Both the position numbers and the translations under genes were made by a program. From positions 3,286,001-3,350,000 of the forward strand of contig NZ_CP100763.1 of NCBI RefSeq assembly GCF_024296685.1: DNA of 64,000 nucleotides. Direction: 5' to 3'. The notes under the pieces are model-generated. The model did not search any database. It saw nothing but the letters and a program-made list of their open reading frames with translations, and was not told the origin of the DNA. Positions 39,296-64,000 of this stretch are shown here, in pieces; within the stretch, counting starts at the first letter, position 1; every line of letters begins with the position of its first letter. Source of the stretch: Natrinema marinum. Its GTDB lineage: Archaea > Halobacteriota > Halobacteria > Halobacteriales > Natrialbaceae.

Positions 39296-39311
39296 GGTCC
39301 CTCCGTGATCG

Positions 39312-41871: not shown

Positions 41872-43532
41872 CCGTCGACCCTCTCTTCGATCGATTGCCG
41901 ATCTAGCTTCCCGACGTCCGTCGTCGGTAACTCGTCCACGATGACCACGTCGCAGGGCCGCTTGTAGGACGCCATGTTCTCTTTGCTCCACTCGATAACG
42001 TCGTCGGCCGTCAGTGACTCGTCGGCGAGCGTGATCGTCGCGACGACCTCCTCCCCTTTGCTCTCGTGGTCGCGGCCGACGACGACCGCGTTGTCGATAC
42101 CGTCGTGCTCTTTGAGGATCGTCTCGACCTCCGCGGGCGAGATCGAGTAGCCGCTGTACTTGATCATGTTCTTGCGCCGACCGAGGAAGTAGAGGTACCC
42201 CTCCTCGGTCATCTTGCCGATGTCGCCGGTGAGCACGTATCCGTCGTGCATCGTCTGTTCGGTCTTCTCGGGCTTGTTGTGATACCCCTTCATCACGGAC
42301 GGCGACTCGACGCTGATCTCGCCGAGTTCACCGCGGGGGACCTCCTCGTGGGTGTCCCAGTCGCGGACGACGATGTCCACGTTGTAGGCGGGGCGGCCCA
42401 TGAAGTCCTCCTCGACGACGCCGAGTCCTCGAGTGAAGGTGTCCATCGTGTGGGTCTCGCTGAGACCGTACGCGGCCTCGTACATCTCGCAGCCGGTGAC
42501 CGACTTCCAGCGCTCGCAGAGTTCGTCGGTGAGCGACTGCCCGAAGCTCGTGGCCGGAATCTCCTCGAAGGAGGTCAGGTCGTACTCGTCGCGGTCCGGG
42601 TGGTTCAACACCCCCCTGACCATCGGCGTGGTCAGCCAGGCCGTCGTCGGTCGATGGGCGCCGGCCGCGTGCATGAGCGGCTCGGTCTCGAACCGGGTCA
42701 GCAGGACGACGGTGCCGCCGTCCACGACGGGCGCGTCGACGGCGTTGAGCTTCCCGGCGACGTGAAACACCGGCATTACCGCCAGATGGCTCGTCTCCGC
42801 GTCGAACCCGTAGATCGTCGCCGTCGCCGCGGCCTTGTGGAGGACGGTCCAGTACGTGTGTTCACACCCCTTCGGCATCCCCGTCGTCCCGGACGTGTAC
42901 TGCAAGAGGATCACGTCGTCCATGTGGTGGTCGACCGACGGCGGCTCCGGGTCCGTTTCCTCGAGGGCGTCCGTGAAGTAGACCGCGTCGCCGCCCGTGT
43001 CGAGCCGATCGGCCGCGATCGCCGCCGCCATGTCCTCGTGGATCGCCGGAACCGGATCGTCCGGCAGATATTCGTCGAACCGCGCGTAGACGACGTCCGT
43101 GATGTCGGTCTCGTCCGCGACCGCCGCGATGGTGTCCGCGAAGGTGTCGTGGGCCAGGACGACCTCCACGTCACCGTCGTCGAGCTGGTACTCGAGGCGA
43201 TGCTCCTTCGACATCGGACTGCACGGGCTCACGGCCATTCCGAGCCGATGGGCGGCGTGATACCCGATGAAGTACTGCGGGCAGTTCTGGAGATACAGCA
43301 GTAGCGTATCCCCCTTCTCGTAGCCGAGCTCGTGGAGGTACGTCGCGAACCGGTCGACGCTCTCGTCGAGTTCGCCGTACGTGATCTCCCGCCCGTAGTA
43401 GTTGATCGCGACGCGGTCCGGCGTCTCGGCCGCCTGGTCCCGGAGGTACTCGTGCAGCGGTTGCTCGCCCCGCGGGAACTCGGGCTCGGGGGGAATCTCT
43501 GCTGGATAGTCGTCCGCCTCTGTCGTAACCAT
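41868..43532 (-). CDS. Acyl-CoA ligase (AMP-forming)
   Basis: 554 residues. ANL motifs are LQYTSGTTGMPKGC, AYGLSETHTMD, YVLTGDIGKM and KYSGYSISPAEVE, with the late catalytic Lys in TTDVGKLDRQ. MVTTEADDYPAEIPPEPEFPRG is a typical N-terminus for medium-chain or aryl acid ligases of haloarchaea. The start at 43532 was chosen as the first Met with family-like sequence. It is the first gene of a two-gene unit with the crotonase and diverges from another ligase. Its substrate is unknown but probably enters through the Liv system. Confidence 0.91.
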   Translation of the reverse strand: MVTTEADDYPAEIPPEPEFPRGEQPLHEYLRDQAAETPDRVAINYYGREITYGELDESVDRFATYLHELGYEKGDTLLLYLQNCPQYFIGYHAAHRLGMAVSPCSPMSKEHRLEYQLDDGDVEVVLAHDTFADTIAAVADETDITDVVYARFDEYLPDDPVPAIHEDMAAAIAADRLDTGGDAVYFTDALEETDPEPPSVDHHMDDVILLQYTSGTTGMPKGCEHTYWTVLHKAAATATIYGFDAETSHLAVMPVFHVAGKLNAVDAPVVDGGTVVLLTRFETEPLMHAAGAHRPTTAWLTTPMVRGVLNHPDRDEYDLTSFEEIPATSFGQSLTDELCERWKSVTGCEMYEAAYGLSETHTMDTFTRGLGVVEEDFMGRPAYNVDIVVRDWDTHEEVPRGELGEISVESPSVMKGYHNKPEKTEQTMHDGYVLTGDIGKMTEEGYLYFLGRRKNMIKYSGYSISPAEVETILKEHDGIDNAVVVGRDHESKGEEVVATITLADESLTADDVIEWSKENMASYKRPCDVVIVDELPTTDVGKLDRQSIEERVDG

Positions 43533-43734
43533 GCGTACAGGTACCAACCTGCATCGGGGTGACAGATAAAAATTCGGGTCAGTCGTCGGTTCCGCAACTA
43601 GCGTCGACGGCGACGGTCCCGTCGTCGCTCGGGGACATCGCTCGACCGTTCGCTCTCGGACACGGTCTCGGTTCGCCGTCTCCACCGAACCGCACGGTAC
43701 CCGACGGGGGCTCGAGACCATTGTTAACACACCC

Positions 43735-43770
43735 AAATACTTATCAATCGTAGTTATCGATTAGGGAGGT
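43735..43770 (+). promoter_or_regulatory. Promoter of the ligase-carboxyltransferase operon
   Basis: TATA-like AAATACTTATC at 43735-43745 is followed by AATCG-TAGTTAT-CGATT (43746-43762), a 5-bp inverted repeat between TATA and start, a usual place for a repressor. GGGAGGT directly precedes the ATG at 43771 but is too close to act as a normal ribosome-binding site. Confidence 0.4.
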
Positions 43771-45447
43771 ATGGGAACTCCGGAATCGTTGGACGCCAGA
43801 CCCATCGAGGAGATAACGATAGACAGTATGCTCCGAACGCGCGCCGATCGGATCCCGTCGGAGACGGCGCTGATCTACGGGCCGGACGATCGCCGCGTCA
43901 CGTACGCGGCGTTGAACGAGACCGCCAATCGCATCGCCAACGGGCTCCGTGAGCGCGGCGTCGAACGGGGATCGAACGTCTCCCTGATGGCCGCTCACCC
44001 GCTCGAGACGCTGTTAGGCATGTTCGGCATCAACAAGGCCGGCGGCGTCTACTCGCCGATCAACTTCGAATACGAGGGCGAGGCGCTTTCCTATCAGCTC
44101 AACGATACCGATCCCGAGGTGCTCGTCATCGAGGACCGGTACGTCGACCGCGTCGAGGCCGTTCGCGACGACCTCGAGGTCGGATTCGAGGTGGTAGTGA
44201 TGGACACGGGTGCGGAGACGCCGCAGACGTCGTTCGAGACGACGCCCTTCGCCGAACTCCGAGAAGGGTCCGCCGACGAGCCCGACGTCGATGTCTCCTG
44301 GAACGACACCGCGAGTATCGTCTACACGTCCGGGACGACGGGGATGCCGAAAGGGGTCGTCCTGCCCCACCGGTGGATCTTCGCGAACTACATCGCACCG
44401 AAGCGCGCCGTCCTGAACGCCGACGACGTCGTCCACACGTCGCTGCCGCTGTACCACATCGGCGGCGTCTACGCGGACGTCGTCGCCGGACTGGTCGCCG
44501 GGGGCACCGTCGCGCTCTGGGACCAGTTCTCCCCGCAGGCGTTCTGGGATCGCATCGCGGAGTACGAGGCCACGTCGGCGACGCTCATCTCGGTGATGAT
44601 GCCGTGGCTGACGAACGCCCCGGAGACCAATTCCGACCGCGAGAACACGCTCAGCAAAGTCCACATGCAACCGCTGCCGGAGGAGTACGAGACGATCGCC
44701 GAGCGGTTCGGGTTCGACATCGTGACGGTCGCGTTCGCCCAGACGGAGACCGGCTCCCCCATCGTCGGCGTCGTCCGAACGGACGAGCTCGGCGGGACCC
44801 CGGACTCGTATCGGCGCGGTCTCGGTCCCGAGGCGGTCGCCGAGCGCGCCCGCGAACTGAACCTCCCGGTCGTCGACGGCGTCGACGAGGAGCGATACAT
44901 GGGTCGCGTCCGCGACGACATCGTCGAGGTCGCGGTCCTCGACGATCGCGACCGCGAGCTCCCGCCCGGCGAGGTCGGCGAACTCTGCATCAGACCGAAG
45001 CGACCGGGACTGCTCCTCGAGCGGTACCACGCGAAACCGGAACGGACGCTCGAGGCGACTCGCAACCTCTGGTTCCACACCGGTGACGCCGCCTACCGGG
45101 ACGAGAGCGGGAACTTCTACTTCGTCGACCGGCTCGGTGACGTCATCCGCCGCCGCGGCGAGAACATCTCCTCGATGCAGATTCAGGACGCCGTCTCGAG
45201 CCACGCCGCCGTCGAAGCGGCGGCCGCGTTCCCGATCCCGGCGCCGGAGGGCGGGGAGGATCAGGTCGGACTCGCGGTCGAACCGCGAGCCGGAGACGAA
45301 CTGGACGAGGAGGCGATCGCGTCCCATCTCACCGGCCGCATCCCCGAGTTCATGCGGCCGGACGAGACGTTCGTGGTCGACGAGATCCCCACGACGGAGA
45401 CGAACAAGATGCGGAAGGTCGAACTCAGGGAGCGACTCCTCGAATGA
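43771..45447 (+). CDS. Acyl-CoA ligase (AMP-forming, CaiC/carnitine-CoA ligase-like)
   Basis: 558 residues. Motifs are VYTSGTTGMPKG, FAQTETGSPIVG in place of GYGxTE, WFHTGDAAYRDE and FVDRLGDVIRRRGENISSMQIQ, with the late Lys in TETNKMRKV. The RRRGENISS version of A8 and the overall pattern resemble crotonobetaine/carnitine-CoA ligases. The stop overlaps the carboxyltransferase ATG (ATGA), so both should act on the same CoA thioester series. Substrate unknown. Confidence 0.9.
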   Translation: MGTPESLDARPIEEITIDSMLRTRADRIPSETALIYGPDDRRVTYAALNETANRIANGLRERGVERGSNVSLMAAHPLETLLGMFGINKAGGVYSPINFEYEGEALSYQLNDTDPEVLVIEDRYVDRVEAVRDDLEVGFEVVVMDTGAETPQTSFETTPFAELREGSADEPDVDVSWNDTASIVYTSGTTGMPKGVVLPHRWIFANYIAPKRAVLNADDVVHTSLPLYHIGGVYADVVAGLVAGGTVALWDQFSPQAFWDRIAEYEATSATLISVMMPWLTNAPETNSDRENTLSKVHMQPLPEEYETIAERFGFDIVTVAFAQTETGSPIVGVVRTDELGGTPDSYRRGLGPEAVAERARELNLPVVDGVDEERYMGRVRDDIVEVAVLDDRDRELPPGEVGELCIRPKRPGLLLERYHAKPERTLEATRNLWFHTGDAAYRDESGNFYFVDRLGDVIRRRGENISSMQIQDAVSSHAAVEAAAAFPIPAPEGGEDQVGLAVEPRAGDELDEEAIASHLTGRIPEFMRPDETFVVDEIPTTETNKMRKVELRERLLE

Positions 45448-47015
45448 CGGACGACGATCCGTTCGAGTACGTCGCCGAGGCGAAACGGTCGCTTTCGGAC
45501 GAGGCCCGCGAAGACGCCGTCGAGTCCCAGCACGGGTTAGGCAAGCTGACCGCCCGGGAGCGAATCGACTACCTCCTCGACGACGGCACGTTCGACGAGA
45601 TCGGACGCCTCGCGGCACCGATGCCGACTACGCCGGAGACCGTCGACTGGGAACGCGACGACGCTCCCGCCGACGGCGTCGTGACCGGGTTCGGAGAGAT
45701 CGATGGGCGGCCGGTCGCGCTGTTCGCGACCGACTTCACCGTGAAGGGCGGCTCGATCGGTCACGCCGGCGGGCGGAAGATGAAACGCGTCGCCGAACGG
45801 GCGTTGGACCGCGGACTCCCCCTGATCATGCTCCACGACGGCGGCGGACACCGCATTCAGGAGGGGCTCGATGCGGCACCGTTCGCCCGCGGCGACAACG
45901 GGTTCTCGAAACTGCAGACGACGCTGTCCGGATGGGTGCCCGTCGTCTCGGCGATGATGGGGCCGGCCTTCGCGGCGCCGACGAACTTCGCGGCGCTCTC
46001 GGACTTCGTCCCGATCGTCGACGGAACGGGAACGATGGGCGTCGCCGGCCCGTCGCTCGTGAAAGCGGCGCTCGGCGTCGACGGCGACAAGGACGACCTC
46101 GGAAGCGCGCGGTTCCAGACGACCGAGACGGGAATGGCGGACCTCGCCTGCGAGGACGACAGAGCGTGTCTCGACGCGATCCGGACGTTCCTCTCCTATC
46201 TCCCGCGGAACGCTCGGCGCGAGCCGCCGACCGCCGATCCGAAACCGCCGACCGACGAGGCGCTCGAGCGGTTGCGGGAGGTCATCCCCGCGAACACGCG
46301 GAAGGGGTACGACATCTACGCGATCGTCGACGGGATCGTCGATCGTGACTCGACGTTCGAACTCAAACCCACCCACGCGCGGAACATCGTGACGGCGTTC
46401 GCCCGCCTCGACGGTGATCCGATCGGCGTCATCGCGAACAACCCGCGGATCAAGGCGGGCACGATCGACACCGCGGCCTCGGAGAAGGCGGCCCACTTCG
46501 CAGCGATCTGCGACGCCTATGAGCTCCCGATCGTTACCCTGACTGACGTTCCCGGAATTCTGCCGGGACCGGACTCGGAACGGGAGGGGATCGCTCGCCA
46601 CTCGGCGAAGCTCCCCTTCGAACTGGCGCGAGCGACCGTCCCCATCGCGAACGTCGTCCTCCGACGCGGCTACGGGTTCGGATACGTGGCGATGGGCGGC
46701 GGGCGTTCGCTCGACTCCGAGTTGACGGTGCTCTGGCCGACCGCCGAGATCGCCGCCATGGGGATCGAAGGTGCCGTCGACATCGCCTACGAGCGGGAAA
46801 TCGAGGCCGCGTCCGATTCCGACGCCCGCCGACGGGAACTGATCGACAAGTTCGAGGACCGAACCGACGCCGTCCGCGCGGCGGCTCGAGTCGGCACCGA
46901 CGGCGTCGTCCAGCCGGAACAGACGCGCGAGCGAATTCGGCGCGCGTTCGATCGGGCGAGCGACGCGTCCGACTCGGACTGGCCGCCGAAAAAACGCCCG
47001 ATCACGCCCATCTGA
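45444..47015 (+). CDS. Acyl-CoA carboxyltransferase, biotin-dependent beta-subunit type
   Basis: 523 residues with two crotonase-like halves. The N-terminal half has GLGKLTARERIDYLLD and GGSIGHAGGRKMKRVAE; the C-terminal half has LTDVPGILPGPDSEREGI and RRGYGFGYVAMGGG. These match propionyl/methylcrotonyl-CoA carboxylase beta subunits or the related decarboxylases. No biotin carboxylase or biotin carrier gene is within this window, so the partner is elsewhere or the enzyme acts differently. It is translationally coupled to the ligase upstream. Confidence 0.88.
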   Translation: MTDDDPFEYVAEAKRSLSDEAREDAVESQHGLGKLTARERIDYLLDDGTFDEIGRLAAPMPTTPETVDWERDDAPADGVVTGFGEIDGRPVALFATDFTVKGGSIGHAGGRKMKRVAERALDRGLPLIMLHDGGGHRIQEGLDAAPFARGDNGFSKLQTTLSGWVPVVSAMMGPAFAAPTNFAALSDFVPIVDGTGTMGVAGPSLVKAALGVDGDKDDLGSARFQTTETGMADLACEDDRACLDAIRTFLSYLPRNARREPPTADPKPPTDEALERLREVIPANTRKGYDIYAIVDGIVDRDSTFELKPTHARNIVTAFARLDGDPIGVIANNPRIKAGTIDTAASEKAAHFAAICDAYELPIVTLTDVPGILPGPDSEREGIARHSAKLPFELARATVPIANVVLRRGYGFGYVAMGGGRSLDSELTVLWPTAEIAAMGIEGAVDIAYEREIEAASDSDARRRELIDKFEDRTDAVRAAARVGTDGVVQPEQTRERIRRAFDRASDASDSDWPPKKRPITPI

Positions 47016-47112
47016 GCGGTGACTCCCGGGAGCGGAGCCCGTCTTTTCCGTCGCACACCGGAACCGTGACCCCGCTCGTTTCGACCGATCCGCGCCGCTA
47101 TCTAACTGAAAA

Positions 47113-47120
47113 TTTATATA
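47113..47120 (+). promoter_or_regulatory. TATA box of the enoyl-CoA hydratase at 47143
   Basis: TTTATATA lies 23-30 bp before the ATG, the distance for a leaderless haloarchaeal transcript. It supports the ATG at 47143 over the in-frame GTG 15 bases earlier. Confidence 0.75.
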
Positions 47121-47142
47121 ACGGTTCGTGATAGTAGGGCTC

Positions 47143-47934
47143 ATGCGAGAGATCGGAAGCGGTAACGTACTACTCGGTATCGAAAATCACCGCGCGGACG
47201 TCGTCCTGAATCGCCCGAAGCGACGGAACGCCATGAACGAGTCCCTCCTGCGGGACCTCCGGACCGCGCTCGAGGAGGTCGACGCGAACGAAGACGTCCG
47301 CGCGATGACGTTGCTCGGCGAGGGCGACGTCTTCTGTGCCGGCATGGACCTCGAGATGATGAAGCGACGCGGCGAGGAAGCGGAGTTCGAACTCGAGACC
47401 GAACTCGACGACATCACCCACTTCATCGACGACATGCGGATCCCCTCGGTCGCGAGCATCGAGGGGGCGGCGATCGCGGGCGCGTTCGAACTGGTCCTCC
47501 CGGTCGATTTCAGGATCATCAGCGAGGACGCCAAGTACGGGGTCGTCGAAGTCGAACTGGGGCTGTTCCCGTCCGGCGGCGCGACGCAGCGCCTCCCTCG
47601 ATTGATCGGCCTCTCGAAGGCGAAAGAACTCGTTCTCACGGGAGACTACATCGATCCGGTCGAAGCGAAACGGTGCGGACTCGTCCACGAGGTCGTCGCG
47701 GAGGGCGCGGACACCGACGAACGCGCCCGCGAGTGGGCGGACTCGCTCACCGAGAACGCCCCGCTCGGGATAGAGTACGGCCGGCAGCTGTTGAACTCGG
47801 CGCTCGAGACGCCCCTCGATCAGGGCCTCGAACTCGAGCGAGAACTCGGTCGGAAACTGACCGACACCGACGACTACACAGAGGGGTTCACGGCGCGCCT
47901 CGAGGGTCGCGACCCCGAGTTTCAGGGGACGTAG
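47143..47934 (+). CDS. Enoyl-CoA hydratase
   Basis: 263 residues, crotonase fold. The oxyanion-hole segment is DVFCAGMDLEMM; both catalytic acids are in place, Glu116 in AGAFELVL and Glu136 in VVEVELG, followed by FPSGGATQRLPR. It should hydrate a 2-enoyl-CoA, probably one made from the acid activated by the ligase upstream. It has its own strong TATA box, so it can be expressed apart from the ligase-carboxyltransferase pair. The next gene on the same strand is an IclR regulator. Confidence 0.92.
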   Translation: MREIGSGNVLLGIENHRADVVLNRPKRRNAMNESLLRDLRTALEEVDANEDVRAMTLLGEGDVFCAGMDLEMMKRRGEEAEFELETELDDITHFIDDMRIPSVASIEGAAIAGAFELVLPVDFRIISEDAKYGVVEVELGLFPSGGATQRLPRLIGLSKAKELVLTGDYIDPVEAKRCGLVHEVVAEGADTDERAREWADSLTENAPLGIEYGRQLLNSALETPLDQGLELERELGRKLTDTDDYTEGFTARLEGRDPEFQGT

Positions 47935-51544: not shown

Positions 51545-52318
51545 TTATGAGAACATCATATTCACTTCGATCGTGTTCGCCGTCGACAGCAACTGGGTGC
51601 GGAGATCGTTTTCCTCCCACTCGTTCTCGAGTCGGTGTTCGGGACCGGTGACGGTGACCGCGCCGTAGACGGTGCCGTCGTTGTCGAGAACCGGCGCGCC
51701 GATCGCGCTGATGCCGGGCAAGTACTCCCCGCGAGTGTAGGCCACGCCTTCGTCACGAACCGTCGCGAGCTCGTCGGAGAGGTTCTCTCTGTCCGTAATC
51801 GTCCTCTCGGTAAAGGCAGGCAGCCCCCACTGGTCGACGATCTCGTCGACGCGCTCCTCCGGGAAGTGTGCCAGCATGGCCTTGCCGCCGGCCGAACTGT
51901 GGAGGTAGACGTGCGTGCCGATGTCGATGTCGCTGGTGAACGACCGACTCCCCTCACTGACGTTGATGATGGTGCCGAGCCCGTTCTGGTGTGTCGAACA
52001 GAGCACTCGCTGGCCGACGTCCGCCGAGAGTTCGTCCAGCGGCGTCTCCGAGGCGGCGTACAGCGGTTCGGCGTGCTTGACGTGTTCGCCGAAGGAGAGA
52101 AAGCGGAGGCTCAGGCGATATTCGTCGCCTTCCTGGACGACGTACCCCTTCGAGCGCAGCGTCGTCAGGTGAGCGTGGACCGTACTCTTGGCGAGATCCG
52201 TTCGCTCGGTGAGTTCCGTCACCCCGGCACCCCCGGCCTGCCACAGCGCCTCGAGGATGTCCAGGGTTTTCACCACTGCCGCCACCCGATTTCCCCCGTT
52301 GGTGTCCGATGTTGCCAT
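51545..52318 (-). CDS. IclR-family transcriptional regulator
   Basis: 257 residues. HTH segment TELTERTDLAKSTVHAHLTTL (about 34-54, including linker) and effector domain with YLHSSAGGKAMLAHFP and AYTRGEYLPGISAIG. The start MATSDTNGG at 52318 is supported by a TATA-like AGTTTTGG centred about 27 bp upstream; an ATG three codons earlier is possible. It diverges from the acyl-CoA dehydrogenase gene and probably controls it and perhaps more. It is clearly paralogous to the IclR at 48142. Confidence 0.93.
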   Translation of the reverse strand: MATSDTNGGNRVAAVVKTLDILEALWQAGGAGVTELTERTDLAKSTVHAHLTTLRSKGYVVQEGDEYRLSLRFLSFGEHVKHAEPLYAASETPLDELSADVGQRVLCSTHQNGLGTIINVSEGSRSFTSDIDIGTHVYLHSSAGGKAMLAHFPEERVDEIVDQWGLPAFTERTITDRENLSDELATVRDEGVAYTRGEYLPGISAIGAPVLDNDGTVYGAVTVTGPEHRLENEWEENDLRTQLLSTANTIEVNMMFS

Positions 52319-52512
52319 ACTCCGCATTCGACGAAACGAACCAAAACTGTTCCGCTCTGCTGAACGCAGTGTTCGGTCGAAAAAATCCTGCCGAGCCGAA
52401 TTTCATCGCGTTCGGTATCGGCTCCGTCGATATCGGCCGACCGACCGCTCCTATGCACATTGAAAGCCAATCACACGATAACGCTTAAGTAGTAAGTTAT
52501 GCGAGATAAGCT

Positions 52513-53709
52513 ATGGACTTCAGCGAACCGTCCGAAGCCGTGCAGATCAAGAAGGCGCTCGACGATTTCATCGACCAGGAAGTCGCTCCCCTCGAGAACG
52601 AGTACGACGAGTTCCTCGGTGCGGACTACGAAAAGGAGATCGTCGACGACGAGCATCGGCAGGTCCCCGAGTATCGCAACATCGTCGAACAGATTCGGCA
52701 GAAATCCGTCGAGGCGGGCTTTTACGGGATGACGATGCCCGAAGAGGTCGGTGGTGGCGACGTCGACATCCTCACGCGAGCGATCGTCGGCGAGCACATG
52801 TCGAACCGGCCGCCGGGTTTCCACAGTTCGATCTTCGGCGGCGCGGGCGGTCCGACCCCCATTTTGCTCGCCTGTGATGACCGCCAGCGCGAGGAGTACC
52901 TCGAGCCGCTGATGGACGGCGAGATCACGACCTGTTTCGCGCTGACCGAGCCGGGCCACGGGAGCGACGCTCACTACATGGATACCACTGCGGAGAAAGA
53001 CGGTGACGAGTGGGTCATCAGCGGACAGAAGTGTTACATCACGAACGGCCCGTACGCCGACTTCGCGATGGTGTTCGCCCGGACGAGCGGCGACGACGGC
53101 GACTTAGGCGGTATCACGTGCTTCCTCGTGGAGGACGACAACCCCGGCTTCGAGGTGGGGAAGATTCACCGTGCGATGGGGATGACTCCCGGCACGCACT
53201 CGGAGCTGTACTTCAACGACTGCCGCGTCGGCGAGGAACAGGTCCTGGGCGAGGTCGACAAGGGCTTCCAGGCCGCGATGGACTGGATCGGCGGCGGCCG
53301 GATCAACATCGCCGCCGGCTCCGTCGGGACGGCGCAGTACCTGCTCGACATGTCCGTCGAGTACGCCCGCGAGCGGAAGACGTTCGACAAAAAGATCGGC
53401 CACCGGCAGGGGATCTCGTTCCAACTGGCCGAACTCGCGACGGACATCGAGCAGGTCCGCCAACTCTACCGCTACGCCGCCTGGAAGATGGACAACGGCG
53501 AGCGCGCCCGCAAGGAGGAGTCGATGGCGAAGCTCCGCGGCGCGAAACTGGCCAACGACGCCGCCGACATCGCGATGCAGGTCCACGGCGGCGCCGGCTT
53601 CATGAAGGATCTCCCGATCGAACGCAACTACCGCTCGGCCCGCGTCTTCCGCATCTTCGAGGGGACCGACGAGATCCAGAAACGGACGATCGCCCGCGAA
53701 CTCATCTGA
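52513..53709 (+). CDS. Acyl-CoA dehydrogenase
   Basis: 398-residue FAD enzyme that introduces the alpha-beta double bond in an acyl-CoA. Hallmarks are CFALTEPGHGSDA and YITNGPYADF in the middle beta domain and RIFEGTDEIQKRTIARELI at the C-terminus, in which Glu383 is near the usual catalytic position of one ACAD class. The N-terminus is MDFSEPSEAVQIKKALDDF. A TATA-like CTTAAGTA (52484-52491) gives a leaderless start. Electrons would pass to an ETF not present here. It is followed after 9 bp by an MBL-fold gene in the same unit. Confidence 0.93.
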   Translation: MDFSEPSEAVQIKKALDDFIDQEVAPLENEYDEFLGADYEKEIVDDEHRQVPEYRNIVEQIRQKSVEAGFYGMTMPEEVGGGDVDILTRAIVGEHMSNRPPGFHSSIFGGAGGPTPILLACDDRQREEYLEPLMDGEITTCFALTEPGHGSDAHYMDTTAEKDGDEWVISGQKCYITNGPYADFAMVFARTSGDDGDLGGITCFLVEDDNPGFEVGKIHRAMGMTPGTHSELYFNDCRVGEEQVLGEVDKGFQAAMDWIGGGRINIAAGSVGTAQYLLDMSVEYARERKTFDKKIGHRQGISFQLAELATDIEQVRQLYRYAAWKMDNGERARKEESMAKLRGAKLANDAADIAMQVHGGAGFMKDLPIERNYRSARVFRIFEGTDEIQKRTIARELI

Positions 53710-53718
53710 GGGTCGACG

Positions 53719-54717
53719 ATGGACGACCCGACGGAACAGCGGACGAAAGCCGCCACCTCGCAGGTCTCCCGGCTCGACTTCGACATCGAGTGGCCGCCGA
53801 AACACGCCGCGGCCTATCTCATCGAGGAACCGGCCCCGACCCTGATCGACACCGGCGATCCGGAAGACCGCGGCGAAGCGACCATCCGCGAGGGGCTGGC
53901 CGCGAAAGGGTACGATCTCGAGGATATCGAAGCGGTCGTCGTCACTCACCCGCACAGCGACCACATCGGACAGGTGCCGCTGTTGCGCGAGGCCGGCGCG
54001 ACCGTATACGCTCCCCGGACCGTTCTCGAGCAACTCGAGCGCGACGCGACCGACCTCGCGGCGGGCGTCCGCGAGGTCGGCCGCTCGGCGGGCTACCGCG
54101 GCGAGGCGATCGAACGCGAGGTCGAGCGCGCCCAGTCGTCACTGCGGCGCAACCGGCGGTTGCTCGCGCCCGACGAGGCTGTCCCGTTCGAGTTCGACGA
54201 GCCGTTTACCGTCGCGGGCCGCGAGTTCGAAGCGATCCACACGCCCGGCCACCAGATTCACCATGCAAGCCTCGCGACGGAACTGAACGGCGAGCGCGCG
54301 CTGTTCAGCGGCGACGCGCTCATCGAGCCGTTCCGGCCCGGCGCGATCCACGTCGGGATCGACTACAAGGCCTACGACGCCGTCGACGCGTTCCACCGCG
54401 CGATGGACCGTCTCGAGGGCCGACCGTTCGATCGCGTCTACCCCGGTCACGGACCGGTCTTTACCGACTACGAGGGGGCGATCGAGAGCACGCGATCGGC
54501 GCTCGAGTCGCTCACCGGCGAGACGTTCGAGGCGGTCGCGAGCGTCGGCCCCGCGACGCCGATGGAGATCACCCGCCACCGCGCCGGCGAGGTCCGGTAT
54601 CCGGCGCAGTTGCTCGATACGCTCGGCGCGCTCGGCACGCTCGAGGGCCGCGATCGGGTCCAGTACAAAGAGCGCGACGGGGTCCGCCACTACTCGGTCA
54701 AGAAGGCCTCGCCGTGA
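53719..54717 (+). CDS. Metallo-beta-lactamase-fold hydrolase
   Basis: 332 residues. Zinc motif THPHSDH gives His77, His79, Asp81 and His82; HTPGHQIHHASL, LFSGDALI and YPGHGPVF supply the rest. A C-terminal helical extension (about 260-332) is like the LACTB2/MBL proteins that also carry a winged-helix segment. A GAGGG sequence six bases before the ATG suggests re-initiation after the ACAD gene, 9 bp away. The last 28 bp overlap the 3' end of the convergent LLM gene. It could be a thioesterase for the same acyl-CoA pathway. Confidence 0.88.
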   Translation: MDDPTEQRTKAATSQVSRLDFDIEWPPKHAAAYLIEEPAPTLIDTGDPEDRGEATIREGLAAKGYDLEDIEAVVVTHPHSDHIGQVPLLREAGATVYAPRTVLEQLERDATDLAAGVREVGRSAGYRGEAIEREVERAQSSLRRNRRLLAPDEAVPFEFDEPFTVAGREFEAIHTPGHQIHHASLATELNGERALFSGDALIEPFRPGAIHVGIDYKAYDAVDAFHRAMDRLEGRPFDRVYPGHGPVFTDYEGAIESTRSALESLTGETFEAVASVGPATPMEITRHRAGEVRYPAQLLDTLGALGTLEGRDRVQYKERDGVRHYSVKKASP

Positions 54718-55679
54718 TCGAGCGGGAGGACGATGCGGTCGGCGATGCCGCCGTAGACGTCCTCCGCCTCCGCGAGTAATTCTTCGGGCGGCGCTTCGAT
54801 CGCGAACGTCGCCACCATCTCGTCGGTGATCAGGTCGGTCATCTCGTCCCAGCGCTGCTCCTTCGAGAGTTCATGTAACTCCTCCCCGAGGGAGCGCCAG
54901 CCGTGGTGGGCGAGCACGTCGTGGTAGGTGCGGGTGCTGCCGTAGAAGGCGATTCGCCGCTTGACCTCCGCGCGGGACTGCTCGCGTTCCTCCTCGGTTT
55001 CGCCCGTCACGACGAACGGGCTCGCCGAGAGCGACACGTCCTCGAGCGAGCGGTCCCCGCGGTCGGCCCCCTCGGCGACGGTCGGCGCGATGACGTCGTC
55101 GGTGTAGCCGGGGGTGTTGAAGACGTGCATGTCCAGCCCGTCGCAGAGTTCGCCCGCGAGCCGAATGTTGTACTCGTTGACGCCCGCGATGTAGATGGGC
55201 ACGTCGGGGTGGTCGATCGGCCCCGGATTGAAGTTGTCCGTCATCAGCGAGAACGAGTAGTGCTCGCCCTGATAGTCTAAGTCGGCCTCGCCCTGGAAGA
55301 CGTCGAAGATGTGCTGGAGGGACTCGACCACTTCGCGCAGCCGCGGCCCCGGCGACTCCCAGTCGACGCTGAAGCGCCGCTCGTTGTGGCCCTTGACCTG
55401 CGTGCCGATCCCGAGGACGAACCGGCCGTCGGAGTACCGTGCGAGGTCCCAGGCGGTGTAGGCGAGCGCCATTGGACTGCGGGTAAAGGACAGCGCGATG
55501 CGTGTCCCCTGCTGGATCTCGTCCGTTCGGTCGGCGATCAGCGGATGGGGAAGGAACGCGTCGTTGTCCATCTCGGGCGTCCAGACGCCGTCGAAGCCGA
55601 GTTCCTCGGCACGCGCGGCCGCGTCGCCGGAGTCGGTTGATAAGCCGGGCACCATCGCGTCGATGCGAAGGTCTGACAT
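54690..55679 (-). CDS. Luciferase-like (LLM) probable F420-dependent oxidoreductase
   Basis: 329 residues, TIM-barrel of the bacterial luciferase family. The N-terminus AAARAEELGFDGVWTPE, the GRFVLGIGTQVKGHNERR segment and VPIYIAGVNEYNIRLAGE are typical of the F420-type group such as Mer or F420-dependent dehydrogenases in haloarchaea. It would transfer hydride between F420H2 and an unknown substrate. Its 3' end overlaps the convergent MBL gene. Its own start at 55679 is in a 100-bp gap downstream of the 2-hydroxyacid dehydrogenase. Confidence 0.88.
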   Translation of the reverse strand: MSDLRIDAMVPGLSTDSGDAAARAEELGFDGVWTPEMDNDAFLPHPLIADRTDEIQQGTRIALSFTRSPMALAYTAWDLARYSDGRFVLGIGTQVKGHNERRFSVDWESPGPRLREVVESLQHIFDVFQGEADLDYQGEHYSFSLMTDNFNPGPIDHPDVPIYIAGVNEYNIRLAGELCDGLDMHVFNTPGYTDDVIAPTVAEGADRGDRSLEDVSLSASPFVVTGETEEEREQSRAEVKRRIAFYGSTRTYHDVLAHHGWRSLGEELHELSKEQRWDEMTDLITDEMVATFAIEAPPEELLAEAEDVYGGIADRIVLPLDHGEAFLTE

Positions 55680-56723: not shown

Positions 56724-58316
56724 TTAGCTGTCCTCCGCTTCCTCGGCGTCCTCGCTTCCGTCCGCTTCCTCGAGCTTGTACTTCTGGATCTTCCCCGACG
56801 TGGTCCGCGGCAGCTCGTCGATGAACTCGACCTCGCGGGGGTGTTTGTAGGAGGCGACGTTGTCGAGGAAGTACTCCTTGATCTCCTCGGCGGTGATGTC
56901 CTCGCCGGCCACGACGCCCGGCGCGGTGACGACGTAGGCTTTGGGCACCTCGTTGCGCCGCTCGTCCGGAATCCCGACGACTGCGCCCTCCGCGACGGCC
57001 TCGTGTTCCGAGAGGAGCTCCTCGAGTTCGCTCGGGTAGATGTTGTACCCCGCGGAGTTGATCATGTGCTTCTTGCGGTCGACGATCTCGTAGTAGTTGT
57101 CGGCGTCCCGGCGGGCGATATCGCCGGTGCGGAACCAGCCGTCGTCGGTGAAGGCCCGCTCGGTCGCCTCGGGCATCCCGTGGTAGCCCTTCATGACCTG
57201 CGGGCCGCGGACGAGGAGTTCGCCCTCCTCGCCGATGGCGACCGTCTCGCCGCTCCCGTCGACGATCTTGGCCTCGGTCATCCGGGTCGGCTGGCCGATC
57301 GTGCCGTGACGGAGGCCGAAGGTCGACCCGCTCTGGGAGTGGGTCGCGCCGTTGGTCTCGGTCAGGCCGTACCCCTCGCTCATCTCGACGCCCGCGGTCT
57401 CCTCGAACTCCTCTTGGACCGCGACGGACATCTTCGCGCCGCCCTCGCCGGCCGACTCGAGGCTGGTCAGATCGTACTCGCCGAAGCGCTCGCTGTTGAT
57501 CATGTCGACGTACATCGCGGTGACGCCGACGTAGTGGGTGATGCCGGCTTCCTCGATCAGTTCCATCGCGGCGTCGCCGTCCCAGTTGGCCGCACTCCGC
57601 AGGTAGACGCTCCCGCCCCGGACCAGCGGCTGCCACGCGGTGTGGGTGAAGCCGGTGATGTGATACAGCGGCAGCCAGACGAGGCTGCGTACGTCCTCGT
57701 CGTCGAGTTCGCTCTCCTGGGAGAGCACCGAGAACGTCTGGGCGCGGAAGTTGCGGTGGGTCAGTTGGACGCCCTTGGGCTTGCCTGTCGTCCCGGAGGT
57801 GTAGGGCAGGAGCGCCACATCGTCGTCGTCGCGCTCGACGAACGTCTCCTCGCCGCGGACATCCTCGAAGGCGTGGACGCCCTCGCTCTCGGAGTCGACC
57901 GAGATGACCGCCGGGTCCCAGTCGATCGCCTCGAGGGCCTCCTCGAGATACGGTTCTAACGCGACGTGCGTGAGGACGGCTGTGGCCTCGGTGTCCTCGA
58001 GTTGGTAGGTCAGCTCGCGTTTGCGGTACTGGGGGTTGACCGGCGAGACGATCGCGCCGGCTTTGAACGCGCCGAGCGCGCCGATCAGGTACGGCGGGCA
58101 GTTCGGCAGGTACTGCAGCATCACGTCGCCGGGTTCGATCCCGAGGTCGGCCAGCCCGCCGGCGAAGCGCGAACTCGCGGCCTGGAGATCCTCGTGAGTC
58201 AGCGTCTGTCCGTGGTATTCGATCGCCTGCGCGTCCCCGTGGTGGCGCACCGTCTCGTCGTGGAGTCGGGCGACGTTGCCGGCTCTGGCACCCTCGCTAA
58301 CGCTTGCCAAATCCAT
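56724..58316 (-). CDS. Acyl-CoA ligase (AMP-forming)
   Basis: 530 residues. Motifs are LPYTSGTTGKPKG, GYGLTETNGATH, WFRTGDIARRD and VDRKKHMINSAGYNIYPSELEE, with the late Lys in RTTSGKIQKYKL. It is closest in pattern to medium-chain/long-chain acyl-CoA synthetases of FadD3 or 4-coumarate type, but the acid is unknown. The start MDLASVSEG at 58316 is about 25 bp from a strong TATA box, which makes the five-codon-longer start less likely. The C-terminus (about 515-530) is an acidic tail. It is followed by the 2-hydroxyacid dehydrogenase. Confidence 0.92.
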   Translation of the reverse strand: MDLASVSEGARAGNVARLHDETVRHHGDAQAIEYHGQTLTHEDLQAASSRFAGGLADLGIEPGDVMLQYLPNCPPYLIGALGAFKAGAIVSPVNPQYRKRELTYQLEDTEATAVLTHVALEPYLEEALEAIDWDPAVISVDSESEGVHAFEDVRGEETFVERDDDDVALLPYTSGTTGKPKGVQLTHRNFRAQTFSVLSQESELDDEDVRSLVWLPLYHITGFTHTAWQPLVRGGSVYLRSAANWDGDAAMELIEEAGITHYVGVTAMYVDMINSERFGEYDLTSLESAGEGGAKMSVAVQEEFEETAGVEMSEGYGLTETNGATHSQSGSTFGLRHGTIGQPTRMTEAKIVDGSGETVAIGEEGELLVRGPQVMKGYHGMPEATERAFTDDGWFRTGDIARRDADNYYEIVDRKKHMINSAGYNIYPSELEELLSEHEAVAEGAVVGIPDERRNEVPKAYVVTAPGVVAGEDITAEEIKEYFLDNVASYKHPREVEFIDELPRTTSGKIQKYKLEEADGSEDAEEAEDS

Positions 58317-58336
58317 GGGTATTGGTATCATGGAAT

Positions 58337-58345
58337 GATATAAAA
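58337..58345 (-). promoter_or_regulatory. TATA box of the acyl-CoA ligase at 58316
   Basis: TTTTATATC on the minus strand, centred 25 bp before the start codon. It is one of the clearest TATA boxes in the window. Confidence 0.7.
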
Positions 58346-58511
58346 TAGTATCCATGTGTGGCGTGCTGACGCCGGGCCTGTGACCGACTCGCGGTCCGTT
58401 CGCGGCTCTCTGCACCGCCAGCGGTCACGCGAGCCGACCCGAGAGCAAGAATACGTGCATTGGTACCCTCTACCACAAGTTATTTGGGTTCGGTGACGAT
58501 ATCGGGAGACG

Positions 58512-58550
58512 ATGACACGGTCCGCGAGACGGAGGGAGACCCGTGGCTGA
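58512..58550 (+). CDS. Possible leader mini-ORF of the thiolase-like gene
   Basis: ATG at 58512 opens a 12-codon frame (MTRSARRRETRG) ending at TGA 58548-58550, overlapping the GTG start of the thiolase-like gene by 8 bp. AGTTATTTG at 58479-58487 is centred about 28 bp upstream, so a leaderless transcript would begin here. Basic composition; not a known protein. Coupled reinitiation is inference. Confidence 0.35.
   Translation: MTRSARRRETRG
58531..58536 (+). promoter_or_regulatory. Ribosome-binding site deciding the GTG start at 58543
   Basis: GGAGGG lies six bases before the GTG of the thiolase-like gene and matches the anti-SD of 16S rRNA. It lies inside the mini-ORF. It supports GTG, rather than an internal ATG, as start codon. 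Confidence 0.6.
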
Positions 58551-59691
58551 ACCGATCCTGGCGGGCGTCGCCGAGAGCGACCTCGGCGAGACCCCCGACC
58601 GGAACTGGCTCGACAACGCGGCGATCGCGACCGTTCGCGCCTTAGAGGACGCCGGCTGTGCCCTCGAGGAGGTCGACGGCGTCGCGGTCGCCGGCGGGAA
58701 CGACTACATGCCGGCGCTGATCCTTTCGGAGTACCTCGACCTCGAGGAGCCCTCGTTCCTCGAGGGCACGGAGATCGGCGGTTCGTCGTTCGAGCACTTC
58801 TGTGGCCACGTCCGCGACGCGATGGCCCGCGACGAGGCCGACGTGGTGGTCGTCGCCTACGGCTCGACGGGCAAGACCGGGCCCGGCAGGGACCAGTCGC
58901 TCGAGGTCACCCATCCCGTCGACGGCTTCGTTCGACCCACAGGCCTGTTCCGACCGCCGGGGGCGTACGCGATGGCCGCCCGCCGGCACATGCACGAGTA
59001 CGGGACGACCGAGAAGCAGCTGGCTGAGATCGCGGTCGCGACCCGCGAGTGGGCGTCGATGAACCCCAAAGCCGCTCAGCAGGAGCCGATTACCGTCGAC
59101 GACGTGCTCGAGTCGCGACAGATCGCCGAGCCGTTCAACCTGCTGGACTGCTGTCTGGTCTCCGACGGTGGCGGGGCGGTCGTCCTCGTCAGCGAGGAGA
59201 AGGCCCGCGAACTCGGGGTCCCCCCGATTTCGGTCGCGGGCGTCGCCTCGACGAGCACCCACCGTCAGGACATCAGCGAAATGCCCGACATGACGACGAC
59301 CGGCGCGGCGGTCACGGGACCGAAAGCCTTCGAGCAAGCCGGGATTACCCACGACGACGTCGACGTCGCCCAGCTATACGACTCGTTTACCTACACCGCG
59401 TTGGTGACCCTCGAGGACCTCGGCTTCTGCGAAAAGGGCGAGGGCGGCGAGTTCGTCTCGGGCGGGACGACCGCCCCCGGCGGCGAGCTCCCGATGAACA
59501 CGCAGGGCGGCGGCCTCTCGTACTGCCATCCAGGTCACTTCGGCGTCTTCGTCCTCATCGAGGCCGTCCGACAGCTTCGGGGCGATTACACGGGCGAGCG
59601 CCAGGTCGACGACGCCGAGGTCGCGGTCGCCCACGGCACCGGCGGCATCCTATCCTCGAGTAGCACCGTCGTCCTCCGGAGGGAAGCATGA
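58543..59691 (+). CDS. Thiolase-fold (SCP-x/Ltp-like) protein lacking the nucleophilic Cys
   Basis: 382 residues. The fold is recognisable from VRALEDAGCALEEVDGVAVA, DVAQLYDSFTYTALVTLEDLG and a C-terminal GGLSYCHPGHFGVFVLIEAV. At the usual nucleophile position the segment EIGGSSFEHF has Ser81-Ser82 instead of Cys, so classical thiolysis is doubtful. Its stop overlaps the DUF35 gene as ATGA. Actinobacterial Ltp2, a Cys-independent thiolase homologue, works with a DUF35 protein as a retro-aldolase in steroid side-chain breakdown; an equivalent C-C cleaving role here is inference. A non-catalytic scaffold is the alternative. Confidence 0.88.
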   Translation: MAEPILAGVAESDLGETPDRNWLDNAAIATVRALEDAGCALEEVDGVAVAGGNDYMPALILSEYLDLEEPSFLEGTEIGGSSFEHFCGHVRDAMARDEADVVVVAYGSTGKTGPGRDQSLEVTHPVDGFVRPTGLFRPPGAYAMAARRHMHEYGTTEKQLAEIAVATREWASMNPKAAQQEPITVDDVLESRQIAEPFNLLDCCLVSDGGGAVVLVSEEKARELGVPPISVAGVASTSTHRQDISEMPDMTTTGAAVTGPKAFEQAGITHDDVDVAQLYDSFTYTALVTLEDLGFCEKGEGGEFVSGGTTAPGGELPMNTQGGGLSYCHPGHFGVFVLIEAVRQLRGDYTGERQVDDAEVAVAHGTGGILSSSSTVVLRREA

Positions 59692-60113
59692 ACGCGCCCG
59701 TCGAGGACCGCCGCGAGGAGTGGGAGGGACCTGTCCCCGTCCCGACCGGCGCGACGGAACCGTTCTGGGAGGCCACGCTCGAGGGCGACCTCCTCTTTCA
59801 GGAGTGTGACTGCGGCAACCGCCAGCTCTACCCGCGGGCGGTCTGTACCGACTGCGGCGCGGAGGACCCGCCGTTCGAGGAGAGCGAGGGCGTCGGAACG
59901 ATCTACACCTACACCGTCTGCCACGTCCCCGGCGAACCCGGTTTCGGCGACCGAACCCCGTACGTCGTCGGCGCGATCGAACTCGCCGAGGGGCCGCGGC
60001 TGCTCGCGATGATCGACGCCGATCCCGACGACCTCGAGGTCGGGACGCCCGTCGCGGTACGGTTCTGGCGGATCTCCGACGAGGCCGCCATGCCGGTGTT
60101 CGTGCCGGAGTGA
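59688..60113 (+). CDS. DUF35 OB-fold/zinc-ribbon acyl-CoA-binding partner
   Basis: 141 residues. A rubredoxin-like zinc ribbon uses Cys40, Cys42, Cys53 and Cys56 (ECDCGNRQLYPR, VCTDCG). An OB fold follows (about 65-141) with GTIYTYTVCHVPGEPGF and a C-terminal FVPE. DUF35 proteins bind acyl-CoA and form complexes with thiolase-like partners. The ATGA overlap with the thiolase-like gene fixes stoichiometric synthesis. An N-terminal helix (about 1-32) probably wraps the partner. Confidence 0.92.
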   Translation: MNAPVEDRREEWEGPVPVPTGATEPFWEATLEGDLLFQECDCGNRQLYPRAVCTDCGAEDPPFEESEGVGTIYTYTVCHVPGEPGFGDRTPYVVGAIELAEGPRLLAMIDADPDDLEVGTPVAVRFWRISDEAAMPVFVPE

Positions 60114-60143
60114 GCGCCCCTTCGAAAAGCAGCGACCGTCTTT

Positions 60144-61175
60144 TCACTCGAGGTTGGCCGTCGCCGTCCCGGTCAGCAGCGTCTCGCCGCCGTCCGTCCA
60201 CGCTTCGAGTTCGATCTCCACCGTTCCGTCGGCCTCGTTGATCTCGACGACCTCGCCGCTGGCGACGACGGTGTCGCCGGGGAAGACCCGCGACTGGAAC
60301 CGGACGCCGAAGCTCGAAATATCCCGCAGTTCGAACCAGTTCGCGACGACGCGGGAGGTGACGCCGGCGGTGAACATCCCTTGCCCGAAGACGCTCTCGT
60401 TGCCCGCGGCCGTGGCGTAGGGCTCGTCGTAGTGGATCGGGTTGAAGTCGCCGCTCGCGCCGGCGTACTTGACGAACTGCTGGCGATCGAGGTCCTCGAC
60501 GACGACGTTCGGACCGGTGTCGCCGACCGCGATGTCGGCGAGGTCGCCGACGCGATCGAAGTTGCCGACGGTCGCCGGCGGCACGTCCGACTCGGCCGCG
60601 GCGGCGCCGCCGTTCGTCGCTGCCTCGGCGGATTCGCTCGAGGCGTCGTCACTCTCGCTTTCGGTGCTCTCCTCGTCGGCGTCGTCGTCGACCGCTCCCG
60701 AGGTCTCGATGGCGGTCGTGCGGTCGGTTAACACGAGTTCGTCGTCTCGATTTCGGTACTCGGTCTCGAGGACGGCGAATGTCATCGTGCCCGCACGCGG
60801 TCCCTCGCGCTGGAAGACATCCGCGAGCGTGGTCGTCCCCTCGAGGACGTCGCCGACGGCCATCGGGCGCTCGTACTCGTGGTGTTGCTCGCCGTGGAGG
60901 ACGTACTCGGGCTGGAAGGCCAGGTCGAAGCCCTTCCCGTCGACGTCTTCGGGGGTGTACCGCGGGAACCGGCCGACCTGGCTGTAGGTCAGCGGCGCGG
61001 GCACGCGGTCGTAGCCCCGCTCGGCGGCCGCCGCCTCGTCGCGGAAGATCGGGTCTTCGGACGTGATCGCGCGCGCGAACTCTTCGACCTTGCCGGCCTC
61101 GACGCGGAACTCTTCGACGGTGACGCGGCTGTCGCCAACCATCGCCTCGAGTTCCTCGATCGGTCTATTCGGCAT
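60144..61175 (-). CDS. MaoC-type double-hotdog enoyl-CoA hydratase
   Basis: 343 residues. An N-terminal FAS1-like hotdog (about 10-160) lacks obvious catalytic residues; the C-terminal MaoC domain has YAGASGDFNPIHYDEPYA, with Asp243 and His248 as the hydratase dyad. The halves are joined by a D/E/S/A-rich linker (about 160-200), probably disordered. It would hydrate a bulky 2-enoyl-CoA, as ChsH-type hydratases do in steroid degradation. It converges with the thiolase-like/DUF35 pair. AGAGGTGA six bases upstream of the ATG is a good ribosome-binding site. Confidence 0.9.
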   Translation of the reverse strand: MPNRPIEELEAMVGDSRVTVEEFRVEAGKVEEFARAITSEDPIFRDEAAAAERGYDRVPAPLTYSQVGRFPRYTPEDVDGKGFDLAFQPEYVLHGEQHHEYERPMAVGDVLEGTTTLADVFQREGPRAGTMTFAVLETEYRNRDDELVLTDRTTAIETSGAVDDDADEESTESESDDASSESAEAATNGGAAAAESDVPPATVGNFDRVGDLADIAVGDTGPNVVVEDLDRQQFVKYAGASGDFNPIHYDEPYATAAGNESVFGQGMFTAGVTSRVVANWFELRDISSFGVRFQSRVFPGDTVVASGEVVEINEADGTVEIELEAWTDGGETLLTGTATANLE

Positions 61176-62751: not shown

Positions 62752-64000
62752 ATGGAACTCGATGTCGTCCCCGCAGAGACGCTTTTAGAGGCCCCCTACG
62801 ATGGGAACGTCGCACACCTGCTCGAGCGAGCGATAGCGGACGAGCCGGACGCGCTCGCGATCGAACACGCCGGCGAAACGATCACCTACCGCGAGTTCGG
62901 CGACCGCGTCGAGCGCTTCGCCGACGGGCTTCGGGAACTCGGCCTCGAGGCCGGCGACCGGGTCGGGCTCTACATGCCTAATGGCATTCCCTTCTGCACT
63001 GCAGTCTGGGCCTGCTGTCACGCCGGGGTCATCGCGAGCCCGCTGAACCCCGAGTACCGCCGTCGTGAGATCGCCTACCAGCTCGAGCACGCTGACGCGA
63101 AGGCGGTCCTCGTCGAGGGCGAGCCCGACGACTACGTCGTCGAGGCCGTCGCCGACCTCGAGACGGAGATCGTCGCCACGACCTCCGGCGGCGACTACCG
63201 GTCGCTGCCGGAACTGGGCGCGGCCGACGCCGACCCGGACGTGGTCGACCGCGAGGACGACGACGTGTTGCTCCAGCCCTACACCTCGGGGACGACGGGC
63301 AAACCGAAGGGCGTCCTGCTGACCCACCGCAACTTTCGGGTCCAGATCGCCCAGAGCGTCTCGAGTTACAGCGCCGGCCCGATCGAGGGCGACGGGATCA
63401 TCGTCCTGCCGATGTACCACATCACCGGGATGCTCGGCATGATGTCCTCGCTGTGTGCCGGTCGGACGCTGCACCTGCTTCGCCCCGACCAGTGGGACCC
63501 GGAACTGGTCCTCGAGAAGTTAGACGAACACGACATTCCGGCCTTCGTCGGGGTCGCCGCGATGTTCGTCGACCTGCTCGACGCCCACGAGCCCGACGAG
63601 TACGACCTGTCGACGCTGATCAAGGCGGGGCAGGGCGGGGACAAGCTCCCGAAGCCGACACAGGAGCAGTTCGAGGAGGCGTTCGACGTCCCGCTCTCTG
63701 AGGGGTACGGGCTGACGGAGACGACCGCGACGAGCCACACCATCCGGTGGTCGTCCCTTGGCAACCGGCCCGGGAGCGTCGGCCAGCCGGTTGGCCACAC
63801 GCGCTCGAAGGTCGTCGACGAGGAAGGGAACGAACTCGGCGCTGGCGAGGAAGGCGAGATCCTCATCGCTGGCCCACAGGTCATGAAGGGATACTACGAG
63901 AACCCCGAGGCGAACGACGACGTCTTCACCGAGGACGGCTTCTTCCGCACCGGCGACATCGGTATGCGAGACGAGGACAACTACTACTACATCAAGGGTC
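62752..64000 (+). CDS. Acyl-CoA ligase (AMP-forming), C-terminus beyond window
   Basis: 416 residues visible, open to the window edge. Motifs are LQPYTSGTTGKPKGV, EGYGLTETTATSH and FFRTGDIGMRD; the A8/A10 parts are missing because of the edge. The N-terminal NVAHLLERAIADEPDALAIEH is typical of fatty-acid or aryl CoA ligases of haloarchaea. It follows the SDR by 98 bp with its own TATA box. It is the fourth ligase of the 41-64 kb region, suggesting several related acids enter the pathway. Confidence 0.9.
   Translation, partial: MELDVVPAETLLEAPYDGNVAHLLERAIADEPDALAIEHAGETITYREFGDRVERFADGLRELGLEAGDRVGLYMPNGIPFCTAVWACCHAGVIASPLNPEYRRREIAYQLEHADAKAVLVEGEPDDYVVEAVADLETEIVATTSGGDYRSLPELGAADADPDVVDREDDDVLLQPYTSGTTGKPKGVLLTHRNFRVQIAQSVSSYSAGPIEGDGIIVLPMYHITGMLGMMSSLCAGRTLHLLRPDQWDPELVLEKLDEHDIPAFVGVAAMFVDLLDAHEPDEYDLSTLIKAGQGGDKLPKPTQEQFEEAFDVPLSEGYGLTETTATSHTIRWSSLGNRPGSVGQPVGHTRSKVVDEEGNELGAGEEGEILIAGPQVMKGYYENPEANDDVFTEDGFFRTGDIGMRDEDNYYYIKG

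Follow-up and report, generated by a model that had tools for sequence, protein, structure and literature searches.

What reaction can a thiolase-fold protein catalyse when the cysteine that thiolases use as nucleophile is missing? This question is raised by a gene, here termed THL, in a 64,000-nucleotide stretch of the Natrinema marinum genome (contig NZ_CP100763.1, positions 3,286,001 to 3,350,000; hereafter the window), where it lies with genes for a DUF35 protein and a double-hotdog MaoC hydratase. We propose that THL and the DUF35 protein probably form a coenzyme A (CoA)-dependent retro-aldolase complex, which would cleave a beta-hydroxyacyl-CoA after hydration by the MaoC protein. THL matched Pfam Thiolase_C_1 (1.4e-62) and scored 460.9 bits over residues 6-380 against NCBIfam NF004811/PRK06158, above the curated cut-off of 421, and is thus a member of this subfamily. 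PRK06158 carries the label "acetyl-CoA acetyltransferase" and is a large, uncharacterised, mainly bacterial family.

We aligned THL jointly with PRK06158 members, the steroid aldolase Ltp2, the bile-acid side-chain aldolase CtSal and two Cys-bearing paralogues from its own genome (L008 and L009). The catalytic-Cys position of thiolases fell at Gly80 in this alignment of 123 sequences and also by the register of the helix that comes next, and a back-count from the following strand, read off the sequences, again gave Gly80. The N-terminal loop of THL shifted in other alignment runs, by two residues at most, and no Cys occupied the nucleophile position in any alignment, slipped runs included. The original prediction was right that Cys is absent there, but its placing of Ser81-Ser82 at the nucleophile was off by one or two residues. 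Gly79-Gly80 and Tyr279 were invariant in the aligned family members (113/113), and the equivalent of the thiolase HDCF motif was YD[S/A]F in 112 of them, with Ala (58) or Ser (54) at position 281 and one exception. The histidine of the thiolase HPxG motif, present in THL as His329, was kept in 111/113 members, and Ser81 and Ser82 were found in 102/113 and 92/113. Cys-bearing archaeal thiolases, which included eight sequences drawn from seven genomes of the phylum outside the haloarchaea, had Cys, HDCF and GHPxG, and Cys and HDC were kept in all ten Cys-bearing archaeal homologues compared. Set against these ten, the invariance of Gly79-Gly80 and Tyr279 indicates that the loss of Cys is more than chance. 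THL departs from SCP2-type and archaeal Cys thiolases in having Gly80 for the nucleophilic Cys and YDSF for HDCF, and shares the HPxG histidine with them. Both L008 and L009 have Cys at the nucleophile site, and an ordinary thiolase elsewhere in the window (22477-23613) has Cys90 and Cys364.

Other variants of the site were also observed. At L079:9971-12292 two family members lie in tandem, the second with GGCSF, where Cys is one residue past the Gly. In the genome of THL itself, L010:8470-9986 encodes another Cys-less type of thiolase-like protein, whose Cys site reads SSSGG and which has HDMF and a retained GHPxG. It is followed by a short partner that resembles an oligonucleotide/oligosaccharide-binding (OB) fold and apparently lacks zinc cysteines.

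Among solved structures, the best sequence matches of THL were 4U4E (2.5e-119), 6OK1 (Ltp2; 8e-51) and 9MYR (CtSal; 1e-50). Foldseek comparison of an AlphaFold2 model (predicted local distance difference test score (pLDDT) 88.8, predicted template modelling score 0.91) ranked 4U4E first, followed by 9MYR and 6OK1, with true thiolases all behind. A 67-sequence tree, with supports from the Shimodaira-Hasegawa-like approximate likelihood ratio test in a quick search, resolved the PRK06158 family (46 rows, 98), Ltp2 (99), Sal (100) and IpfD (100) as separate groups. Together these groups stood apart from the Cys-bearing archaeal thiolases (support 100), in agreement with an earlier first tree. The results bear out the expectation that THL would have no nucleophilic Cys and would fall outside ordinary thiolases, with 9MYR and 6OK1 as best solved matches after 4U4E. 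They do not sustain its equation with Ltp2, since THL belongs to a separate clade and combines YDSF with His329, at the position of Tyr344 in Ltp2 and of Gln352 in Sal. Aldolase chemistry is not demonstrated by fold and tree position alone.

We then compared THL with the closest known systems. 4U4E, a PRK06158-type "thiolase" of Sphaerobacter thermophilus, is 54% identical to THL, belongs to the same clade and shares GGSSF, YDSF and SYxHPG; it differs in being bacterial, and only its structure, not its function, was found. The CtSal-Shy complex resembles the THL system in Gly at the Cys position, the Tyr of the YD motif, the DUF35 partner and the second-best fold, whereas its YDCY motif with an essential Cys304, its Gln352 and its own clade set it apart from THL with YDSF and His329. 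Ltp2-ChsH2 also lacks Cys, has Tyr294 at the position of Tyr279 and is accompanied by a DUF35 partner and a MaoC hydratase (ChsH), but Ltp2 has YDHF, carries Tyr344 at the position of His329 and lies in a separate clade. In contrast to the Ltp2 system, no steroid genes were recognised at the THL locus. The base Tyr has been proven in both aldolases (Ltp2 Tyr294, CtSal Tyr302), and Y302F nearly abolishes CtSal activity (PMC12329534). It has also been documented that CtSal has Gly at the thiolase Cys position, and that the second catalytic residue is Tyr344 in Ltp2 (YDHF) and Gln352 at the equivalent position in CtSal (YDCY) (PMC12329534). As read from the aligned residues, the THL active site is a third combination, YDSF with His329 at the Ltp2-Tyr344/Sal-Gln352 position.

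The IpfD-IpfE pair of the ibuprofen pathway, taken here to be the annotated thiolase-DUF35 pair beside the ring dioxygenase on pIBU218, likewise joins a thiolase-fold protein to a DUF35 protein, and releases propionyl-CoA from a non-steroid acyl-CoA (PMC9195938). It differs from THL in its separate clade and in being partnered with the ring dioxygenase, not a hydratase. An Ltp2-clade gene beside CaiB on the plasmid was rejected as IpfD, because the thiolase-DUF35 pair adjoins the dioxygenase elsewhere. Distinct from that pair, pIBU218 L139:4573-6137 encodes an Ltp2-clade lipid-transfer protein with DUF35, an enoyl-CoA hydratase and a CoA transferase.

Coupling of THL to the DUF35 gene by an ATGA overlap (59688-59691), as originally described, was confirmed, and DUF35 adjoined THL in 80/80 species loci. 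The best Protein Data Bank (PDB) matches of the DUF35 partner were the DUF35 proteins Shy (9MYR_B) and ChsH2 (6OK1_B). Its zinc motif, C-x-C-x10-C-x2-C, recurs in near relatives; a CxxC form occurs in other haloarchaea, and the zinc finger of Shy is instead Cys3His (C3H1). Since the Cys-bearing L009 paralogue is also DUF35-paired, this pairing is not diagnostic. The hydratase and DUF35 genes run towards each other, implying separate transcripts. The hydratase carries the dyad D243-x4-H248 (DFNPIH, of the D-x-N-P-x-H type) in the C-terminal hotdog only, the N-terminal hotdog having none, and the motif was invariant in eight aligned orthologues. Two hotdogs of which one has the dyad is the HadAB/ChsH arrangement, and the protein is like HadAB, ChsH1-ChsH2 and fused HadAB in this single dyad. 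It differs from the NCBIfam fused HadA/HadB model, scoring 128 bits against a cut-off of 350, and is a haloarchaeal form with an acidic linker. Its predicted structure (pLDDT 47, only eight close homologues) was not used.

To what extent is this set of genes conserved? Pfam matches confirmed that thiolase, DUF35 and double-hotdog MaoC lie together with a short-chain dehydrogenase/reductase (SDR) and ligases, and the set was largely conserved in 13 other haloarchaeal loci. THL with DUF35 and a major facilitator superfamily transporter were present in 13/13, the double hotdog in 12/13, the downstream ligase in 11/13 and the SDR in 10/13, and the outer neighbours varied. Identity across these loci was 88-93% for THL, 71-84% for DUF35 and 64-78% for the hydratase. 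Most dN/dS comparisons were saturated, and the few values obtained (0.03-0.16) show constraint only. A clear orthologue of the acyl-CoA dehydrogenase (ACAD) was found in eight of the 13 loci. The ACAD, F420, metallo-beta-lactamase (MBL) and 2-hydroxyacid dehydrogenase genes were rejected as core genes, the ACAD having no clear orthologue in 5/13 and the F420 gene in more.

We also surveyed 60 loci flanked by 5 kb or more on either side, the counts being descriptive. MaoC was found in 35, any hydratase in 44, acyl-CoA dehydrogenase in 41, CoA ligase or CoA transferase in 39, SDR in 29 and a classical 3-hydroxyacyl-CoA dehydrogenase in only seven. At 11/60 loci MaoC was present with neither SDR nor classical 3-hydroxyacyl-CoA dehydrogenase within 6 kb. 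An actinomycete metagenome-assembled genome had ACAD-DUF35-THL-SDR-HadA-HadB-ligase in a single run, the same set as the window, and roseobacters showed the order DUF35-THL-MaoC(DxNPxH)-CaiB. On the Achromobacter plasmid pA82 the row comprised two MaoC genes, a transporter subunit, a CoA transferase, DUF35 and THL, with no annotated dehydrogenase among these. No shared substrate compound emerged from the bacterial neighbour genes.

Table. Features of the THL locus, in window coordinates.
Feature	Position	Strand	Details
THL, Cys-less thiolase-fold protein	58543..59691	+	GTG start, 382 aa; Gly80 at Cys position, YDSF 279-282, HP 329-330
DUF35 partner, zinc ribbon + OB fold, 141 aa	59688..60113	+	Pfam OB_ChsH2_C, zf-ChsH2; zinc motif C-x-C-x10-C-x2-C
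Double-hotdog MaoC/HadAB-type hydratase, 343 aa	60144..61175	-	Pfam FAS1_DH_region + MaoC_dehydratas
SDR family oxidoreductase, 257 aa	61880..62653	+	internal ATG start; longest open reading frame (ORF) from 61781
AMP-forming acyl-CoA ligase	62752..63999	+	extends beyond window end
Second AMP-forming acyl-CoA ligase, divergent from THL	56724..58415	-	true start probably about 58316
Acyl-CoA dehydrogenase (ACAD), 398 aa, accessory	52513..53709	+	Pfam + orthologous loci
MBL-fold hydrolase, accessory	53719..54717	+	Pfam + orthologous loci
TIGR03617-family F420-dependent luciferase-like monooxygenase (LLM) oxidoreductase, accessory	54690..55679	-	369 bits, cut-off 278
IclR-like regulator, accessory	51545..52327	-	named via conserved Halostagnicola orthologue annotated IclR

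Further from THL, window 36021-47934 encodes a branched-chain-type ATP-binding cassette transporter, two acyl-CoA ligases, two enoyl-CoA hydratases and a carboxyl transferase, which suggests a wider carboxylic-acid catabolic island. A 1526-aa sensor-kinase-like ORF with what look like many repeated PAS-type domains, judged from the sequence, lies at 29669-34249.

How might the module work? In the proposed route, a carboxylic acid would be taken up and activated by a CoA ligase, the acyl-CoA would be made alpha,beta-unsaturated by the acyl-CoA dehydrogenase where present, and the double-hotdog MaoC protein would hydrate the enoyl-CoA to a beta-hydroxyacyl-CoA. Cleavage of the bond between the alpha and beta carbons by THL would then proceed with no covalent acyl-enzyme. 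Tyr279 is the candidate base taking the proton of the beta-hydroxyl group, upon which an aldehyde or ketone would leave, and the enolate of acetyl-CoA or propionyl-CoA would be held and protonated with the aid of His329 and of the main chain in the loop that bears the Cys in thiolases (Gly79-Gly80). In thiolases, the histidine equivalent to His329 is the oxyanion-hole histidine. The SDR may act on the released carbonyl. A tertiary alcohol at the beta carbon, possible in Ltp2-type chemistry, resists any dehydrogenase, which would explain the need for such an enzyme.

Several points weigh against a retro-aldolase. The papers found contained no activity measurement for any member of the clade. 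Position 281 (Ser/Ala) provides neither the essential Cys of Sal nor the His of the Ltp2 motif; Cys304 is essential in CtSal and C304S kills the enzyme (PMC12329534), so that the proton relay of THL, with Ser or Ala there, must differ. The Halostagnicola larsenii locus has no MaoC and SDR nearby, a family member on a Rhodococcus DK17 plasmid has no adjacent DUF35, and the conserved core contains no aldehyde dehydrogenase. The main reason for doubt is that the SDR found in 10/13 haloarchaeal loci could act as a 3-hydroxyacyl-CoA dehydrogenase and so supply a beta-keto substrate.

This doubt leads to an alternative in which the SDR turns the hydrated intermediate, by oxidation, into a beta-ketoacyl-CoA, and this is what THL-DUF35 cleaves, without Cys, by a hydrolytic or Ser-assisted retro-Claisen reaction; the module would then be a modified beta-oxidation thiolase. 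The frequency of SDR genes (the same 10/13 loci, and near 29/60 species loci), the resemblance of the remaining neighbourhood to beta-oxidation and the common occurrence of Ser81 and Ser82 are in line with it. We nevertheless consider it unlikely, since the nucleophile position is Gly throughout, the Cys of HDCF has become Ser or Ala and its His the Tyr of the aldolases, the genome retains Cys-bearing thiolases for ordinary thiolysis, and MaoC stands at 11 loci where the 6 kb around hold neither an SDR nor a classical dehydrogenase. THL-DUF35 could also run in the bond-forming direction, as an aldol- or Claisen-type condensation on a CoA ester toward product, or act as a decarboxylase. Some thiolase-fold enzymes with DUF35 partners are indeed acyltransferases, PhlABC being an example (PDB matches 5M3K and 9SKH), and TbSLP weakly decarboxylates malonyl-CoA, but CtSal has no such activity (PMC12329534). 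The surroundings of THL, with CoA ligases, hydratase, acyl-CoA dehydrogenase and uptake transporters, are moreover catabolic, and we regard this possibility as slightly less likely still.

It is very improbable that THL is a divergent DUF35-scaffolded acetoacetyl-CoA thiolase of the archaeal mevalonate type, working in a complex with 3-hydroxy-3-methylglutaryl-CoA (HMG-CoA) synthase. The thiolase fold, the DUF35 partner and the presence of 6ESQ among the PDB matches would fit this role, but THL has neither Cys nor HDCF, a scan of ten proteins in its surroundings found no HMG-CoA synthase family, and its own genome has a Cys-bearing DUF35-paired paralogue (L009:8896-10074). Its patchy spread is also unlike that of a core pathway: a close THL orthologue (at least 88% identity) was found in 17/292 Halobacteria genomes, the window's own genome counted. 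One further genome has an orthologue split in two frames, and others hold only a relative of 38-48% identity. The split gene (L028 region, genome G163 contig C48:93679-94811) lies in overlapping frames and is either decayed or a sequencing error.

Where did the haloarchaeal THL come from? A patterned scan of GTDB species, bacteria and archaea together, confirmed at least 591 THL relatives, so the system is not the archaeal speciality that it had been taken for. The 80 relatives kept of these were mostly from Pseudomonadota, Actinomycetota and Chloroflexota, and those non-haloarchaeal hits of the phylum that were inspected proved to be ordinary Cys thiolases. In the trees, two haloarchaeal THL clades fell apart, which makes transfer from bacteria likely; judged from these sequences, the haloarchaeal THL was likely acquired from bacteria, perhaps twice. 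The Halostagnicola larsenii orthologue lies on a 465-kb plasmid. THL is not the only Cys-less thiolase-like protein with YDSF in its genome: a second one, which shares 46% identity with THL, is encoded at L007:7403-16802 (about 515-525 kb). It is accompanied by a DUF35 partner of its own, and its neighbours include a MaoC protein, a 3-hydroxyacyl-CoA dehydrogenase, a CoA transferase and an HpcH-like aldolase; an additional DUF35-paired thiolase-like protein, with YAPF replacing YDSF, is encoded at L007, 10896-12077.

We put forward a wider proposal more tentatively, as a possibility that falls somewhat short of even. DUF35-dependent CoA-aldolases of the thiolase fold may include a third class, of which THL would be the archaeal branch; its active site would combine Tyr and His, with neither Cys nor the paired Tyr, and it would extend across hundreds of bacterial species. 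The haloarchaeal substrates would perhaps be beta-branched acyl-CoAs, which are beyond ordinary beta-oxidation because their hydration yields a tertiary alcohol. No report of a haloarchaeal aldolase of such a type was found in the open-access literature searched. The module is compact and conserved, and is therefore directly testable. If the proposal is true, "acetyl-CoA acetyltransferase" (PRK06158), a very common annotation, would be wrong for a large family. The family would then represent a third route from thiolase to aldolase, one in which the thiolase histidine is retained, and CoA-dependent retro-aldol cleavage, mainly known from steroid side chains, would be a general catabolic step that extends into the archaea.

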